NCBI GenBank assembly: GCA_015904045.1
Contig: JABMDG010000049.1
Coordinates: forward strand, 31,562-37,816
Reading direction: 5' to 3'
Length of the DNA: 6,255 bases
Source of the DNA: Nitrospira sp.
Lineage (GTDB): Bacteria > Nitrospirota > Nitrospiria > Nitrospirales > Nitrospiraceae
How positions within the stretch are numbered: the first letter of the stretch is position 1; the number at the start of each line of letters is the position of its first letter. Positions 1-6,255 of the stretch are shown here, piece by piece. The notes beneath the pieces are model-generated. The model saw only the letters and a program-made list of their open reading frames with translations, was not told where the DNA came from and searched no databases. The translations under genes were made by a program, and so were the position numbers.

Positions 1-1728
1 CAACGATTCAATCGACTGATCCGCCAGTCGAATGGCCGAGTGGAATCCCAATGAGGTCGTCCCGCCGATATTGTTGTCGATCGTGCCGGGGATGCCGGTG
101 ACCTGAACGCCGAACATCTCATACATCGCGCGCGCCCCGCGCAGGCTTCCATCCCCCCCCAGCACCACGAGCGCGCCGTCCCGCAGATACGGCTCCAGAT
201 TGCGGACCGCCGCTTGCTGCACCTGTTCGTCCTTGAAGTCTTCAAAGCGGCTGCTGCCGATCGGACTGCTCGGCCGGCTGCCCAGCATGCGCGTGTCCTG
301 CTCAGAAACCTTTTCGATCCAGTTGTTGGCCAATCCCAGAAATCCGTGCCGCACAAAATAGACATCCAAACCGAACCGGTTTCCGGCAACTCGAAATTCT
401 TTCAGCGCCGCCCCGGCACCCGCAAAGTCCCCACCCGACACGAGCGCCACCAGTTGTTTTACCTGACGCGGCTTCAATGTCACACGATCCCGTCGCTGAC
501 GCTCTACCGACACCCAAGCATCCCGTTCCACCCGCTCACGTTCCGACAGACCGACTGCCGTCGAATAGCCGGAGATCTGCCCGTTCTCATAGGTCAGGAG
601 AACGACATTGTCCTGCCCCTCTTTATACTCGCCGAACTCGGAGAAGGCCTCGGTGAACGGGCGGGGGTCCAGAAAGATCACCAGGGCCCGCAACGTCGAA
701 CTATGCGTGTAGAGGCAGGACACAGAACCGCGATGAGTATCCGCGAGACGATGCACCCCATCCACGACGGTGACGTAGGTGTCGAAAAATGAATTGCCCC
801 CCGGATAGCAATAGAGCGGATGCTTGATCAGCTTCTTGGCCGTCTTCACGTCGACTCCGAATGCGTGTGCCGCGGCCTCCGCTTCTGCGGTTTTCTCGAT
901 CCCCGTCACCCATCCAAAATCCTGAGAGTCCAATGCGTCAGCGATCTGTGGTGGATCGAAATCTGCTTTCCCCGTTAGAATGGCGGCCGACACTCGTTGG
1001 CAGAGCTGAGTGGTATTGGGGCTTCGACTGACAAGTTGGACGAACGCCCCTGGGTCCAAATAATTGCGCACGTGCAGATAATCCAACTGCCGGCCCACGA
1101 CTCCGATAATTTTTGCCAATGCCAGACCGACGGCATCCGCCTTGGCGAATCCCCGGTCCCGGTCCAGCACATTGGCGAGCCGGCATCCGACTCGGTGGGT
1201 CTTGCTCTCCACCTGCGACACCCCATGTCTCATCGCGAACAGCAAGGCGCGCTCAGTCAGATCCCGAGGCAACAGCCAAAAACGGTCATCGCCGAGATCA
1301 AGAACAATCCGTCCTTCCGCAAGCTCCGGCGTGAGCTGCGCGCGTGACACAATCGCCACAGGCCGCCGAACGAGAGGCTTCTGACAGTGTCCAATCGCCG
1401 CACGAAAGAGCGGCGCAAGTTCTCCACCCGCCGCCAAGCAGTTCCACGCCGCATAAAACACCAGGGCGTCACCCCCACAGGCGTGATCGATCACCGATTG
1501 CCTGGCGGCACGATATTCGGAGGCATTCGCAAATCCTTGGCGGGCACGCTGAACCAGCGACAGGATTTCTGATGTCGCAGTCCTGGCCCGCTCCAACCGG
1601 TCCGATCGTGTCGGCAGTGGCGGAGGAAGGGTCAACTCGCCGATCCGAGGCAGCCGTGTGAGTGCGTCCCCGTAGAGAAGCAGTCCTTCAAGCGTCACAA
1701 AATTCAATGGGTCGACCGGAGGCGGCAT
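1..1728 (-). CDS. pfkA: Histidine phosphatase-domain / 6-phosphofructokinase fusion protein (3' end beyond window)
   Basis: A stop-free frame of 576 codons runs from ATG at 1728 to the window edge. Residues 425-576 match the first half of ATP-dependent 6-phosphofructokinase, which phosphorylates fructose 6-phosphate in glycolysis: SGGD (431-434), GFLGL (462-466), GSSRF (491-495), GGDGS (524-528) and PGTIDNN (547-553). The Gly residues in GGDGS and PGTID are those of ATP-using rather than PPi-using enzymes. Residues about 160-405 are a histidine phosphatase domain: RHG (167-169, His168 the likely phospho-acceptor), THRVG (177-181), SRSPNTT (234-240), YPGGNS (308-313) and THSSTLRAL (341-349, His342 the second His). 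Residues 1-150 are unassigned. The start is supported by AGGGTGA just upstream; an in-frame TAG lies eight codons upstream of the ATG, with a GTG two codons upstream as the alternative start. Roughly 170 kinase residues should lie off the left edge. Domain calls are firm; the fused protein's reaction balance is inference. Confidence 0.88.
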   Translation of the reverse strand, partial: MPPPVDPLNFVTLEGLLLYGDALTRLPRIGELTLPPPLPTRSDRLERARTATSEILSLVQRARQGFANASEYRAARQSVIDHACGGDALVFYAAWNCLAAGGELAPLFRAAIGHCQKPLVRRPVAIVSRAQLTPELAEGRIVLDLGDDRFWLLPRDLTERALLFAMRHGVSQVESKTHRVGCRLANVLDRDRGFAKADAVGLALAKIIGVVGRQLDYLHVRNYLDPGAFVQLVSRSPNTTQLCQRVSAAILTGKADFDPPQIADALDSQDFGWVTGIEKTAEAEAAAHAFGVDVKTAKKLIKHPLYCYPGGNSFFDTYVTVVDGVHRLADTHRGSVSCLYTHSSTLRALVIFLDPRPFTEAFSEFGEYKEGQDNVVLLTYENGQISGYSTAVGLSERERVERDAWVSVERQRRDRVTLKPRQVKQLVALVSGGDFAGAGAALKEFRVAGNRFGLDVYFVRHGFLGLANNWIEKVSEQDTRMLGSRPSSPIGSSRFEDFKDEQVQQAAVRNLEPYLRDGALVVLGGDGSLRGARAMYEMFGVQVTGIPGTIDNNIGGTTSLGFHSAIRLADQSIESL

Positions 1729-1730
1729 GT

Positions 1731-1737
1731 TCACCCT
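1731..1737 (-). promoter_or_regulatory. Shine-Dalgarno site of the phosphatase-phosphofructokinase gene
   Basis: Read on the minus strand this is AGGGTGA, followed by AC and then the ATG at 1728. It matches the GGTGA side of the anti-SD complement, for which short spacing to the start is normal. It favours the ATG over the GTG two codons upstream, which lies inside the site. Confidence 0.55.
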
Positions 1738-1787: not shown

Positions 1788-2018
1788 ACCAGGCCACGCA
1801 GTCCCATCCTTAATGGCCCGTGGAACTGCGCAGCACGGCTGTACGCTTTCCTGCAGGAGCCGCAGTTTGAACAGACTGATGCACCTGCGGATGAGGTGGA
1901 ACGACGACTTGCATGCGAAGGCTTGGTCGAACCGGGAGGGAAGCTCGTGACCCTGTCCGGCACAAGAGTCGGCCGACCCGGCGGGACAAACCTGGTAACG
2001 TTACAGGAAATGCGCTAA
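1788..2018 (+). pseudogene. pyk: Remnant of the 3' end of a pyruvate kinase gene
   Basis: The frame ending at TAA 2016-2018 reads, from about 1851, FEQTDAPADEVERRL, then GLVEPGGKLVTLSG, then GTRVGRPGGTNLVTLQEM. This is the pattern of the C-terminal domain of pyruvate kinase: an F(E)NTD-like segment, a helix, GLVKPGD.VV..AG, then G.PGTTN.I.V before the stop. Only about 50-65 C-terminal residues of a protein normally near 470-480 remain. The frame is closed upstream by TGA at 1785-1787 and has no ATG or GTG before the conserved part, so it cannot be expressed as a pyruvate kinase. The original stop appears preserved, so loss came from the 5' side. It lies between two divergent genes, next to another glycolytic gene. 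Family assignment rests on the motif pattern only, over a short segment. Confidence 0.72.
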
Positions 2019-2110: not shown

Positions 2111-3145
2111 ATGATGAGACTCTTCCTCGCCTGCATCTTCACCTTTCTTCCCTTCAGTGCCTGGGCAGCCCCCCCAAGCGTCGGCACGACCGATGCGGTC
2201 TATCCACCGGCTGCAGCTGATCTTGCCGATCCGAACAAGGCAGAAGACACCGACGACCAGACCGGCGCCATCGGTCTTTACCAGATCGCCAGCCTCTCCA
2301 CACTCCTCCTCTACGGCCTTCTCTGGATCCACTTTGATGTCTCGCCTTGGCAAATTACGATCACGCTCGGCACGGCACTCCTCACCCAATATGCCGGCTC
2401 TCGCTTCTTCAACCTACCTGTGTTCGACCCCAAGAGCCCCTTGATCTCAGCCCTCTCTCTCTTCCTCCTACTGCGTACGGACCAGCTCCCCGTCGCAGCG
2501 CTGGCATCGTTCCTTGCCATCGCCGGCAAGTTTGTCATCCGATGGAATGACAAGCACGTCTTTAACCCGACTAACTTGGCACTCGCCGTGGTGTTGACCA
2601 GCGGCCTCGGCTGGATATCACCAGGGCAATGGGGGCAGGTCGCCTGGTTCGGCTTCTTGATTGCCTGTCTCGGCGGCCTCGTCGTCACGCGCGCTGCGCG
2701 GGCGGATGTGACGGTGGCCTTTCTCGCCTTCTACGTCGGTCTTCTCATAGCACGGGCACTCTGGCTTGGCGATCCGCTGACGATCCCGCTCCACCAGATC
2801 GAAAGCGGCGCGCTGCTCATCTTTGCCTTTTTCATGATTTCAGACCCGAAAACGACGCCGGATTCGAGAATCGGCCGGATCACCTTTGCGCTCCTCGTCA
2901 CACTGGCAACTCTCTATGTTCAGTTCGGTTTGTTTCGCCCCAACGGCCCGCTGTGGGGACTGATCGCCTGCGCGCCATTCGTCCCATTGATCGACTATTT
3001 GCTTCCAGGCTCTCGCTATGACTGGTCCAAACCATCAACCGGTGTGCAGATGCGTAGCCCAGAGTCACACGTCATAGACCAACCGGTAGCCGTCAACCGT
3101 CTGTGTTCAGTATCGTCCATTCACCAACCAAGGAGGTTCTCATGA
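2111..3145 (+). CDS. Stand-alone NqrB/RnfD-family membrane protein
   Basis: A 344-residue polytopic membrane protein. Residues 1-20 form a signal peptide ending AWA-A, then a hydrophilic stretch to about 55, then about nine hydrophobic segments (roughly 56-72, 82-95, 108-122, 126-144, 153-167, 176-194, 200-217, 231-244, 257-272, 280-298). Family hallmarks are the LLLRT turn (119-123), the HVFNPTNLAL segment (149-158) and FFMISDPKTTP (240-250), the position of the FFM.TDP.T signature of NqrB/RnfD subunits. Those subunits sit in Na+- or H+-linked NADH:quinone or ferredoxin:NAD oxidoreductases and carry FMN covalently on a Thr of an SGAT motif; I cannot find that motif here. No other rnf/nqr subunit is adjacent. 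Start: ATGATG after AGGA at 2101. The tail after about 305 is not recognisable. The stop overlaps the next start by four bases (ATGA). The electron-transfer role is inferred from family only. Confidence 0.78.
   Translation: MMRLFLACIFTFLPFSAWAAPPSVGTTDAVYPPAAADLADPNKAEDTDDQTGAIGLYQIASLSTLLLYGLLWIHFDVSPWQITITLGTALLTQYAGSRFFNLPVFDPKSPLISALSLFLLLRTDQLPVAALASFLAIAGKFVIRWNDKHVFNPTNLALAVVLTSGLGWISPGQWGQVAWFGFLIACLGGLVVTRAARADVTVAFLAFYVGLLIARALWLGDPLTIPLHQIESGALLIFAFFMISDPKTTPDSRIGRITFALLVTLATLYVQFGLFRPNGPLWGLIACAPFVPLIDYLLPGSRYDWSKPSTGVQMRSPESHVIDQPVAVNRLCSVSSIHQPRRFS
3130..3136 (+). promoter_or_regulatory. Strong Shine-Dalgarno site of the DUF2330 gene
   Basis: AAGGAGG, five bases before ATG 3142. 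It fixes the start at 3142 rather than at the upstream in-frame ATG at 3103, which would add 13 residues in front of an otherwise normal signal peptide. It lies inside the last codons of the preceding gene, consistent with translational coupling. Confidence 0.85.
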
Positions 3146-3981
3146 AACGCATCAGTGCAACAGCATTCACACTGCTCATCGGCCTGCTCGCCTGGACCGG
3201 CGACGCATCGGCTTTCTGCGGCTTCTATGTGGCCAAGGCCGATACCAAACTCTTCAATAAAGCCTCCGAGGTAACTATCGCACGGCATGACAACAAGACC
3301 GTCATCACGATGGCCAATGACTTCAAGGGAGATGTCAAAGAATTCGCGATGGTTGTGCCGGTGCCGACGATACTGGAAAAGGAACAGATCCATATCGGTG
3401 AGGCGGCAGTCCTCAAGCATCTTGCCGATTATTCGGCGCCGCGATTGGTTGAATACTTCGATGAAAACCCTTGTCGGCGTTATGAGCTGTTTCAAGATAA
3501 GATGGGCGCCTTAAAAAATACGGCTCCGGCGTCAGCCGAGGTGAAACGGGAACGGGACCGTGCTCTGGGAGTTACGATCGAAGCTCAGTACACCGTCGGC
3601 GAGTACGACATCCTGATTCTTTCGGCCAAGGAGAGTAACGGTCTTGAAGTCTGGCTGAGCGAGAATGGCTATAAGACTCCCAATGGGGCATCAGCCGTCT
3701 TACAAAGTTATCTTAAGCAAAACATGAAGTTCTTTGTGGCGAAGATCAACCTTGGAGAACAGGCAAGACTGGGCCTGAGCCATTTGCGTCCACTCCAGAT
3801 TGCGTTTGAATCGCCCAAGTTCATGCTCCCCATCCGGCTGGGCACGGTGAATGCCGACGGTGCACAGGAACTCTTCATTTACTTCCTGACAAAACAGGGT
3901 CGCGTCGAGACGACAAACTATCGAACAGTCCGCCTCCCGGAGGCCCAGGAGATTCCGGTCTATGAAGGACAGGTTCGGTGA
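3142..3981 (+). CDS. Secreted DUF2330-family protein, apparently truncated at the C terminus
   Basis: A 279-residue exported protein of unknown function. Residues 1-24 are a signal peptide (basic MKR, hydrophobic core, cleavage near ASA-F). The mature part begins with FCGFYVAKAD and continues with VITMANDF (54-61), EFAMVVPVPT (67-76), YSAPRLVEYFDENPC (97-111), VGEYDILILSA (152-162), LKQNMKFFVAKI (191-202) and ESPKFMLPIRLG (223-234), a pattern I recognise as DUF2330. Two Cys (26 and 111) remain; as I recall, full-length relatives carry a further Cys-containing segment near the C terminus. It overlaps the upstream membrane-protein gene by four bases, so the two are probably co-translated and may work together at the membrane surface. 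The reading frame appears to break near 3962: family-like residues continue in another frame beyond this stop (see the 3962-4010 entry). It may still be translated as a shortened protein. Confidence 0.8.
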   Translation: MKRISATAFTLLIGLLAWTGDASAFCGFYVAKADTKLFNKASEVTIARHDNKTVITMANDFKGDVKEFAMVVPVPTILEKEQIHIGEAAVLKHLADYSAPRLVEYFDENPCRRYELFQDKMGALKNTAPASAEVKRERDRALGVTIEAQYTVGEYDILILSAKESNGLEVWLSENGYKTPNGASAVLQSYLKQNMKFFVAKINLGEQARLGLSHLRPLQIAFESPKFMLPIRLGTVNADGAQELFIYFLTKQGRVETTNYRTVRLPEAQEIPVYEGQVR

Positions 3982-4010
3982 CTTCTACAAAGAACTGTTT
4001 ACTCAACAGG
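3962..4010 (+). pseudogene. Out-of-frame continuation of the DUF2330 gene
   Basis: After PVY at the end of the in-frame protein, a different frame reads KDRFGDFYKELFTQQ (3965-4009). It resembles the segment that follows the PV(Y/F) position in DUF2330 relatives as I remember them. An indel next to 3962-3965 (two bases lost or one gained) would restore continuity. After about 4010 the frame turns unrelated and stops at TAG 4034-4036, where lhr sequence begins on the other strand. Support is from motif memory, so moderate. Confidence 0.5.
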
Positions 4011-4866
4011 TAACCAGCTCGGCCACACGATCGTAGACATCCGACCAAATCGCATTCGTTGCGATGGCACTCAATTCATCTTTTGGAACTTCGACGGCCA
4101 GGTCGAGTTCGCGGCGATGGCCGACGTCGATAATAGTACATGGAAGAGAGCTGATGGCCGATGGCGTATGGCTTATGGCACGAGTCGAATCGGACAAGGA
4201 TGACCCATGCCGATTGCCGACCAGGAACTGCGCCACCAGCTCGATCGGCCGCTGTGTGGCGGACAATCCGATTCGCTGCGGCTTTGTAAACGTCAGCGCT
4301 TCAAGACGTTCCAACGAGAGCGCCAGATGTGCACCGCGCTTATTCGGGGCCAGCGCATGAATTTCGTCAACGATCACTGTCCGAACCGTCTGCAACATCC
4401 GTCGGCTCTTCTCGGCCGTGAGCAGGATGAATAGGGATTCGGGCGTCGTGACCAGAATATGAGGCGGGCGCTTGAGCATCTGCTGGCGATCGGCCATTGG
4501 CGTGTCTCCGGTTCGGACCAGAACACGCAGCTCCGGCATCAATAATCCTGCCTGCAACGCCGCATGGCCGATTTGGGCGAGCGGTTGCTGGAGGTTCTTC
4601 TGAATGTCGTTGCTCAGCGCTTTCAGCGGCGAGATGTACAGAACCTGCGTGTGGTCATCCAGCTCACGGGCAAGAGCCTGCTTGAACAGACAATCGATAC
4701 AGGAAAGAAAAGCGGCAAGCGTTTTACCCGATCCGGTCGGCGCCGCAATCAGCGCATCTGATCCGGATTGAATCGCGGGCCACGCCTGGACTTGCACATC
4801 AGTAGGCTCGCCAATGTGGGATTGGAACCAGTCGTCGATGAGGGGGTGAAACCGGGAGGCAAGCAT
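4003..4866 (-). CDS. lhr: Truncated Lhr-type ATP-dependent helicase (N-terminal fragment, probable pseudogene)
   Basis: A 287-residue product containing only the first RecA-like domain of an Lhr (large helicase-related) superfamily 2 enzyme. Visible motifs: Q-motif region PTDVQVQAW (21-29), Walker A PTGSGKT (43-49), Ia YISPLKALSND (77-87), TPESL (141-145), Walker B DEIH (167-170), motif III LSAT (201-204), then VGHRRELDLAV (248-258) typical of Lhr. Full Lhr proteins are usually near 900-1,500 residues; everything after the first domain, including the second RecA domain with motifs IV-VI, is missing. Homology stops at DRVAELV (279-285) and the frame ends two codons later at a TGA in sequence that belonged to the facing DUF2330 gene, with only 21 bases between the two stops. 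No clear ribosome binding site precedes ATG 4866. It could bind ATP but not work as a complete helicase. Confidence 0.85.
   Translation of the reverse strand: MLASRFHPLIDDWFQSHIGEPTDVQVQAWPAIQSGSDALIAAPTGSGKTLAAFLSCIDCLFKQALARELDDHTQVLYISPLKALSNDIQKNLQQPLAQIGHAALQAGLLMPELRVLVRTGDTPMADRQQMLKRPPHILVTTPESLFILLTAEKSRRMLQTVRTVIVDEIHALAPNKRGAHLALSLERLEALTFTKPQRIGLSATQRPIELVAQFLVGNRHGSSLSDSTRAISHTPSAISSLPCTIIDVGHRRELDLAVEVPKDELSAIATNAIWSDVYDRVAELVTC
4152..4179 (+). repeat. Heptanucleotide short tandem repeat inside the lhr fragment
   Basis: Four consecutive 7-base units of the form NNATGGC: TGATGGC, CGATGGC, GTATGGC and TTATGGC. They encode part of the low-complexity stretch around helicase residues 229-239, between VAQFLVG and TIIDVGHRRELDL. 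In Lhr relatives these two blocks are, as I recall, separated by only a few residues. The repeat therefore looks like a small insertion tolerated in a surface loop or gained after decay began. Confidence 0.6.
4781..4845. repeat. Direct repeat, copy A (lhr codons 8-29)
   Basis: These 65 bases align without gaps to 6191-6255 with 59 identities, exactly 1410 bp apart. This copy is the one inside the longer lhr fragment. On the left side similarity falls away over about 10-13 more bases (about 4768-4780). Confidence 0.92.
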
Positions 4867-4923: not shown

Positions 4924-6129
4924 CTATGGATGGCCGGGTGTTGCAATACCAGAAGGGGCAGTCCCGGCGCGAAAAGGGTTTCCCAATAGTGGATTCACCG
5001 GGGCTAGCAAGCCGGTAGCAGTGCTAATTGTATAGGACGACACAGTCCCTCCACCGTTTGCCACAAACAGCACTTGCCCATCCGGCGAGAGCGTCATAGC
5101 CACAGGGTTTGTTCCTGCCGGGACAGGGTTGAGATTGCCTGATGACGGAGGCACAAGGGTGAGCAGACCACCATTGCCAATAGTGAACGTCGTCACATTC
5201 CCTCCGCCGTTTGCCGAGTAGAGAAATTGTCCATTGGATGCGACGATGATTCCGTTTGGAGTTGTCCCTCCAACCGAGATTGGGTTCGGGTTACCTGCTG
5301 TCGGCGAGACTTGAGTTAGAAGCCCGTTCGTTCCAATCTGAAACGCAGTAATGTTATTAGAGCCGCTATTGGCCACATAGAGAAACGATCCATTGGGGGA
5401 GATCCTGATGCTTTTAGGAGCTGTCCCTCCGACCGAAATCGGGTTCTGATTAGCCCCGGTCGCAGGTACCAGCGTCAGAAGCCCGCTTGCCCCGATCTGA
5501 AACACTGTTATGACATTGGACGTACTGCTGGACACATAGAGAAATTGACCGTTGGGGGAAATAGTCATGCCGGCAGGAGCATCCCCTTGGACTGAAACGG
5601 GATTGGTGGTGGCCCCTGTCTGAGGCACCAACGTGAGCGCTCCTGCATCGTCGATCGAAAATGCCGTCACGGTATCAGAGCCGCGATTAGCTACGTACAC
5701 AAACTGGTTGTTCGGCGAGATGGCGAGCGCCACAGGATCCATGCCGACGGGAGCTGGATTGGGATTGGTTTGTGTAGACGGCACGCGTAAGAGTCTGCCA
5801 TCAGTCGCCACTCGAAATGCTGTGACAGTATTGCCGGCCCCGGCGTTCGTCACAAATGCAAAGAAGCCATTTGATGAGACTGCAATTGCCGATGGATCCG
5901 CAATCTGAGGAAAGGGAGATCCGGCAATCGCTGTAAGTGTTCCAGTGGTCGGATTGATAGTATACCCGGATACATCGTCGGAACCGCGATTTGCGACATA
6001 GACGATTGATGTCGTACCGACTCCTCCAATGGCGCCAAAGCCCCCGCCTCCGTCGCCATCCCCACAGCCACCTCCGGCGAGAAGCAAGAGCAGTGGCAGT
6101 ACAAGCGATGCCAGCCGTCGTGTCTTCAT
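4924..6129 (-). CDS. Seven-bladed lactonase/YVTN-type beta-propeller, probable lipoprotein
   Basis: A 401-residue protein with N-terminal MKTRR, a Leu-rich hydrophobic core (10-17) and GGGC with Cys22. The Cys after a hydrophobic core and before a Gly/Asp-rich linker (about 23-39) suggests lipid attachment, although the residue three before Cys is Gly rather than the usual Leu. Residues 40-401 consist of seven repeats of about 47-53 residues, each with a core such as PNGQFLYVANxGSNNITAFQI followed by GLLTLVP and NPxxVGGxxP. This matches the lactonase/YVTN seven-bladed propeller superfamily (6-phosphogluconolactonase-like fold). No ligand or reaction can be assigned. I prefer ATG 6129 because it gives a proper signal sequence; its ribosome site is weak (AGAAG). 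The frame is open upstream to the right edge through an lhr-derived segment, so longer forms starting at GTG 6207 or beyond are possible but would bury the signal peptide. Confidence 0.82.
   Translation of the reverse strand: MKTRRLASLVLPLLLLLAGGGCGDGDGGGGFGAIGGVGTTSIVYVANRGSDDVSGYTINPTTGTLTAIAGSPFPQIADPSAIAVSSNGFFAFVTNAGAGNTVTAFRVATDGRLLRVPSTQTNPNPAPVGMDPVALAISPNNQFVYVANRGSDTVTAFSIDDAGALTLVPQTGATTNPVSVQGDAPAGMTISPNGQFLYVSSSTSNVITVFQIGASGLLTLVPATGANQNPISVGGTAPKSIRISPNGSFLYVANSGSNNITAFQIGTNGLLTQVSPTAGNPNPISVGGTTPNGIIVASNGQFLYSANGGGNVTTFTIGNGGLLTLVPPSSGNLNPVPAGTNPVAMTLSPDGQVLFVANGGGTVSSYTISTATGLLAPVNPLLGNPFRAGTAPSGIATPGHP
4927..6012 (-). repeat. Tandem protein repeats: seven propeller blades
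   Basis: Blade boundaries in residues of the 401-residue form: 40-86, 87-138, 139-191, 192-244, 245-297, 298-348 and 349-401. Blades 3-5 have identical 53-residue length and are most alike, indicating more recent duplication or homogenisation in the middle of the gene. The first blade is shorter and has the YTINPTTGTLT form. Confidence 0.75.
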
Positions 6130-6162
6130 GCTTCTATGTTGATTCGTTTGCAAAGGACCGGC

Positions 6163-6186
6163 GCGTTTCAGTTTATATTGAAACGC
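6163..6186. repeat. 8-bp inverted repeat at the lhr/propeller junction
   Basis: GCGTTTCA (6163-6170) and TGAAACGC (6179-6186) are exact reverse complements around an 8-base AT-rich loop (6171-6178). On the minus strand the loop reads ATATAAAC, resembling a -10 box, 34 bases or more before ATG 6129, though no good -35 is seen. It coincides with the point where similarity between the two lhr copies ends. Confidence 0.65.
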
Positions 6187-6255
6187 CGACCACGCCTGGA
6201 CTTGCACATCAGTAGGGTGGCTGATGTGGGATTGGAACCAGTCGGCAATGAGGGG
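6178..6255 (-). pseudogene. lhr: Second copy of the lhr 5' end (continues beyond the right edge)
   Basis: The frame reads PLIADWFQSHISHPTDVQ then VQAWSAFQ, aligned to residues 8-33 of the other lhr copy (PLIDDWFQSHIGEPTDVQ, VQAWPAIQ). After Gln the helicase sequence is lost, just before the ATP-binding motif, and the frame runs straight into the propeller gene. The lhr start codon is expected 21 bases past the window edge by comparison with copy A. It is only a 5' stub and cannot encode helicase activity. Confidence 0.8.
6191..6255. repeat. Direct repeat, copy B (lhr 5' end)
   Basis: Partner of 4781-4845. The six differences lie at 6217, 6219, 6222, 6223, 6245 and 6247. The repeat probably extends beyond the right edge, so its full length is unknown. 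Confidence 0.92.

Follow-up and report, generated by a model that had tools for sequence, protein, structure and literature searches.

The window analysed here, a stretch of 6,255 nucleotides from a Nitrospira contig (JABMDG010000049.1, positions 31,562 to 37,816), carries part of a gene whose product is predicted, from its sequence and from modelling, to be composed of three parts: a helical N-terminus, a histidine-phosphatase (HP)-fold domain and an ATP-type phosphofructokinase (PFK) fold. No description of this architecture was found in the papers searched, in keeping with a preliminary description of this DNA, which knew of no characterised protein of the kind. The fusion retains the base and ATP residues of PFK and has lost acceptor and effector residues. 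On these grounds we favour, tentatively and with close to an even chance of its being right, the reading that it is a PFK-derived protein that would use ATP, with a changed acceptor or a much-lowered activity on fructose 6-phosphate (F6P), and in which the HP fold may act as a ligand-binding control domain.

N. defluvii and N. moscoviensis, whose chromosomes are finished, encode the fusion in a single frame, and it is therefore not an assembly join. This bears out the earlier proposal that HP and PFK domains are fused on one chain, and disposes of the alternative raised with it, that two genes had been joined by an assembly error. A full-length copy (locus L001, 6001-8370) encodes 789 amino acids (aa), and the window product differs from protein P0001 at 3 of 576 residues. 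A protein search gave 476 relatives, of which the best 120 all had at least 67% identity. Scanning species genomes yielded 67 fusion loci, with taxa named as Nitrospira, Nitrospirae/Nitrospirota, Nitrospiraceae bacteria, Manganitrophus/Manganitrophaceae, Nitrospirales NPIRA04 and one 'uncultured Nitrosospira' bin, NOB2. A partial protein, P0208, carries a Parcubacteria bin name, perhaps owing to a binning error.

The taxonomic spread, for which the preliminary description had called, could be assessed by genome. The fusion, whole or partial, was present in 145 of the 246 genomes of the class of N. defluvii (at least 58% identity) and, phylum-wide, in 75 of 295 genomes, all 75 of which lie within the 145; the next matches listed in the phylum search were to the PFK half alone, at 33% identity or less. 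Within the genomes searched, the fusion is confined to one class of Nitrospirota; other phyla were not covered genome by genome. Some copies are interrupted by contig ends, an N run or frame breaks. One copy (G317:C1:133633-135927; 58% identity) has five in-frame stops, in a genome with no other match to PF00365.

The PFK half has the PF00365 profile and the corresponding fold. Residue counts refer to 74 fusion representatives, or to 25 representatives compared with 16 ordinary PFKs. Among near-invariant PFK positions, 44 are kept and 23 lost in the fusions (16 ordinary PFKs plus E. coli PfkA, against 25 fusion representatives; only positions of clear state were counted, mixed ones being excluded). 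Positions G11, D12, R72, D103, G104, S105, G108, G124, D127, G170, E222, H249 and R252 are kept in 74/74, while T125 is Thr in 65 and Ser in 9, and M169 is Met in 73. Present in every representative, then, are Asp103, which we take to bind Mg, Gly104 and Gly124, which we take to be the ATP-type donor residues, and the base Asp127. That base, Mg and ATP residues are all retained speaks for a phosphotransferase.

The losses are as uniform. Asp129 and Arg171, presumably positions of the catalytic site, have become Asn and Ala, respectively, in 74/74 (ordinary PFKs: Asp in 16/16, Arg in 14/16). The F6P phosphate ligand Arg162' is Ser in 70 and Thr in 4 of the 74, compared to Arg in 16/16 ordinary PFKs. 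At the positions that we take to form the effector site of bacterial PFKs (R21, R25, R54, R154, E187 and K213), residues R21, R25 and K213 are replaced in 25/25 fusions. That Arg162, Arg171, Asp129 and most effector residues are uniformly lost speaks against a normal allosteric F6P kinase. PMC12203962 gives Asp127 as the catalytic base of PFK, and assigns Arg162 two roles, as the R/T switch and as one of the four residues binding the F6P phosphate. A new, invariant His-rich insertion, which carries TPHxHH, lies just behind Glu222, with H653 and H655 present in 74/74. NCBIfam scores agree with a putative non-standard PFK. Against PFKA_ATP (TIGR02482, cut-off 371.35 bits), P0001 and P0054 scored 166.4 and 178.9, below the cut-off, and the ordinary P0227 scored 375; against NF002872 (cut-off 253), the values were 173 and 190.9, again below it, and 390 for the P0227 control.

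The middle part has a phosphoglycerate-mutase-like fold, which by fold, though less clearly by catalytic residues, places it in branch 1 of the HP superfamily, and the HP-clan assignment made earlier thus holds. RHG, the second His and the Arg of HSSxLRAL are each found in 74/74; because RHG and the His are invariant, the extension that bears them is under selection. R245 is kept in 72/74. The block of the second Arg reads S.SPNT, with Arg in the aligned column in 31/74, and the acid column of LxExxxG holds Ser in 71, Ala in 2 and Pro in 1 of the 74, next to a residue that is E/D in 74/74; both columns come from the same weak profile alignment (hhalign probability 45, one misread frame in the template). 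The PFKFB-like motif pointed out in the preliminary description is present, as YPGG[N/H]S. In Foldseek, phosphoglycerate mutases, PhoE, TIGAR and PFKFB rank together for the HP half (E ~1e-7), PFKFB3 (2dwp) being at rank 14, and a second alignment had no PFKFB entry among its 50 rows. Kinship with fructose-2,6-bisphosphatase in particular, which had been suggested for this half, is therefore unsupported.

For residues 1-160, no Pfam match was found. None of the 74 representatives lacks the linker. Between N. defluvii and N. moscoviensis, a single pair, identity is 80% for the PFK half, 72% for the HP domain, 65% for the N-terminal region and 72% for the pyrophosphate (PPi)-type PFK.

Pyruvate kinase adjoins the fusion at 51 of the 67 loci: it is divergent at 28, lies downstream on the fusion's own strand at 20 and is convergent at 3. 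Flank length varies, so that the 16 others include short contigs. It is also divergent and adjacent in three near-complete genomes without another PF00365 match, which may overlap the 67 loci; in one of them the neighbour is a distant pyruvate kinase (37% identity). At L001 an intact pyruvate kinase lies on the opposite side of the fusion, downstream and convergent, and a pyruvate-kinase relic, weaker than that of the window, lies upstream (5721-5840, E 3e-5). Between the two most frequent gene orders, the sole difference is that the fusion gene is flipped where it stands, and adjacency is for this reason moderate evidence of shared function. For L008-L066, the fusion was seen inverted between the same neighbours in different Nitrospira groups; these neighbours, named by eye, are pyruvate kinase, a HAD-like and an M16-like gene on one side, and c6, a barstar-like c7 and a hemL-like gene on the other.

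As to other sugar-phosphate genes, in 30 of the 145 fusion genomes the fusion is alone in matching PF00365 (this number includes split or broken copies, and completeness figures are not available); the other 115 have more than one match, a part of which are split copies. N. defluvii and N. moscoviensis possess a PPi-type paralogue (GGDDT, PKTIDND) in which R162, R171 and D129 are intact. A separate fructose-1,6-bisphosphatase I (FBPase I) was found in 4/4 fusion genomes, and in 25/26 genomes of a hand-picked second set, including 22/23 of those with the fusion. Great Lakes Nitrospira genomes are reported in PMC9239080 to be without phosphofructokinase.

According to the reading that we favour, the fusion would bind ATP and would most likely phosphorylate an acceptor other than F6P, or F6P with much lower efficiency. 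The HP-fold domain would be a phospho-ligand-binding or weakly catalytic control domain, substituting for the lost effector site and, together with pyruvate kinase, tuning lower glycolysis or gluconeogenesis. Several observations weigh against this. Arg243', which we take to be an F6P phosphate ligand, is Lys in 25/25 fusions, a replacement of little weight since Lys also occurs in 2/16 ordinary PFKs and Lys/Pro aligns there in PPi-type paralogues; the F6P phosphate might yet be bound by K243, H249 and R252. In the effector site, E187 is kept in 25/25, R154 is Lys in the fusions, and R54 is Glu in 25/25, at a position where just 1/16 ordinary PFKs has Arg. The pairwise distances of the two halves, HP and PFK, show a correlation of only r = 0.66 (74 representatives). 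Finally, the position next to pyruvate kinase may reflect inherited synteny, and the 30 genomes in which the fusion is the sole PF00365 match would fit a working PFK as well. We nevertheless rank the ATP-using, changed-acceptor protein first. Next comes a pseudo-enzyme, dead or nearly so, which we consider rather unlikely: ATP and a sugar phosphate would bind to what was once the PFK site, a situation resembling that of the regulatory half of eukaryotic PFK-1, and the protein would do no more than sense or regulate, its partner being for instance pyruvate kinase. Such a role agrees with substitutions that are without exception, with the adjacent pyruvate kinase, and with D129N and the loss of R171, which affect the same two positions as in the C-terminal half of human PFK, itself non-catalytic. 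The base Asp127 and the Mg-binding Asp103, however, are kept in 74/74; the eukaryotic regulatory half, by contrast, aligns a Ser with the base and, according to PMC12203962, no longer has the ATP pocket.

Less likely still is the view of the preliminary description, that of a working F6P 1-kinase with its own phosphatase, acting on the pair of F6P and fructose 1,6-bisphosphate (FBP) or making and breaking a signal, as a convergent counterpart of PFKFB. The ATP-type signature, the base, E222, H249 and R252 are indeed kept, as are RHG, the second His and YPGG[N/H]S, and the fusion is the only PF00365 match in those 30 genomes; moreover, the acidic E/D267 (74/74) could be the HP proton donor after a shift of one residue, and the conserved R179, R183 and R245 could stand in for the second Arg. 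Against these stand D129N, R171A and R162S/T, each in 74/74, R243K in 25/25, the change of most effector-site residues (E187 being kept), a canonical HP second Arg in only 31/74, the separate FBPase I of 4/4 and 22/23 fusion genomes, and the missed PFK equivalog cut-offs. Of that earlier interpretation, the domains, their fusion, the motif and the lack of a prior description stood; the control of the F6P/FBP step by coupled kinase and phosphatase did not find support. That the protein deserves the name 6-phosphofructokinase, as a plain housekeeping PFK whose N-terminal extension is inert, is very improbable, given active-site replacements without exception, an extension under selection, and the 115 genomes with further PF00365 matches, split copies included. 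Bolder, and in our view doubtful, is the proposal of a bacterial, PFK-1-fold counterpart of PFKFB that would have shed the effector site and the Arg162 switch, gained a new acceptor and used the HP fold as a control or opposing activity, making, and perhaps breaking, a novel phosphorylated sugar signal that would control the pyruvate kinase of Nitrospira.

Among nitrite oxidisers and complete-ammonia oxidisers, Nitrospira are of major importance. Several source databases list the fusion as 6-phosphofructokinase, and under this label a metabolic reconstruction can take it as proof of glycolysis; given the rebuilt active site, the name may well misdescribe it. If the fusion makes no FBP, 30 of the 145 genomes would be without a known FBP-making member of the PFK family. 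Because its losses and retentions are uniform, the fusion offers a natural test of a change of acceptor and control in the PFK fold. The question is directly testable, since the gene is present in the named strain N. moscoviensis NSP M-1, a species which we take to be in culture.

Table 1. Features of the fusion gene and its upstream flank in the window
Feature	Position	Strand	Remarks
Fusion gene (ORF)	1..1734	-	First 578 of ~787-789 codons; 3' end left of the window
N-terminal region, mostly helical, residues 1-160	1255..1734	-	
HP-fold domain, residues 161-397	544..1254	-	
RHG, phosphohistidine motif	1222..1230	-	74/74 representatives
SPNT motif, where canonical HPs have SxLxRA (second Arg)	1012..1023	-	Aligned column R in 31/74
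LDSQDFG, in place of canonical LxExxxG	913..933	-	Acid replaced by Ser in 71/74; neighbour E/D in 74/74
YPGGNS motif, like PFKFB2 YPGGES	790..807	-	
THSSTLRAL, second catalytic His block	682..708	-	His and Arg in 74/74
PFK-fold domain, N-terminal part, residues 424-578	1..465	-	Remainder beyond the window
GGDGS, ATP-type nucleotide/Mg motif (Asp103, Gly104)	145..159	-	74/74
PGTIDNN, base Asp127 kept, Asp129 replaced by Asn	70..90	-	Base 74/74, Asn 74/74; ordinary PFKs Asp 16/16
Pyruvate-kinase C-terminus relic, divergent, directly upstream of the fusion	1860..2015	+	64.7% over 51 aa, E 5e-15, to the L001 pyruvate kinase

Further along the window, at 2111-3145 (+), the beginning of a small protein continues, in the same frame, as an RnfD/NqrB-like gene, with a junction near 2273. 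Relative to L001, about 2.15 kb are missing there, including a gene that is radical-SAM-like by eye; the junction is a deletion in the window lineage, an insertion in L001 or an assembly join. A DUF2330 gene (3103-3981, +) is shortened, at 292 aa compared to 448 aa in L001. The minus strand carries a fragment of an ATP-dependent helicase (4003-4866; best NCBIfam match PRK13767). Close to the start of this fragment is a stretch of 79 bases that recurs (88.6%) at 6177-6255, beyond a gene for a lactonase-type beta-propeller (4924-6207).

Compared with known systems, the fusion differs from bacterial PfkA (PF00365, E. coli 1PFK) by the loss of D129, R162, R171 and most of the effector site; it has in addition Lys243, the N-terminal and HP-fold domains, and the His-rich insertion. 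Asn at 129 and the loss of Arg171 in the MGx motif are shared with the regulatory half of eukaryotic PFK-1, human PFK reading TISNN and MGG in its C-terminal half, with positions 129 and 171 changed and Ser at the base. That half, in yeast and mammals, is described in PMC12203962 as having lost catalysis and the ATP pocket, its sugar site having become an effector site for fructose 2,6-bisphosphate. The fusion, in contrast, retains ATP-site residues and the base, and has no tandem PFK duplication. The HP half has 13-20% identity with phosphoglycerate mutase, PhoE and HP branch 1, from which it differs by the variable second-Arg column, Ser at the acid position (71/74), the SPNT block and the fusion to PFK. 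Eukaryotic PFKFB (PFK-2/FBPase-2) likewise couples a sugar-kinase-type domain with an HP domain, and the YPGGxS motif is common to both (5htk aligned, E about 1; a resemblance of motif only). In the fusion, however, the HP domain comes first, the canonical second Arg is variable, and the kinase half is of the unrelated PF00365 fold, P0001 having no Pfam match to the P-loop 6-phosphofructo-2-kinase domain.
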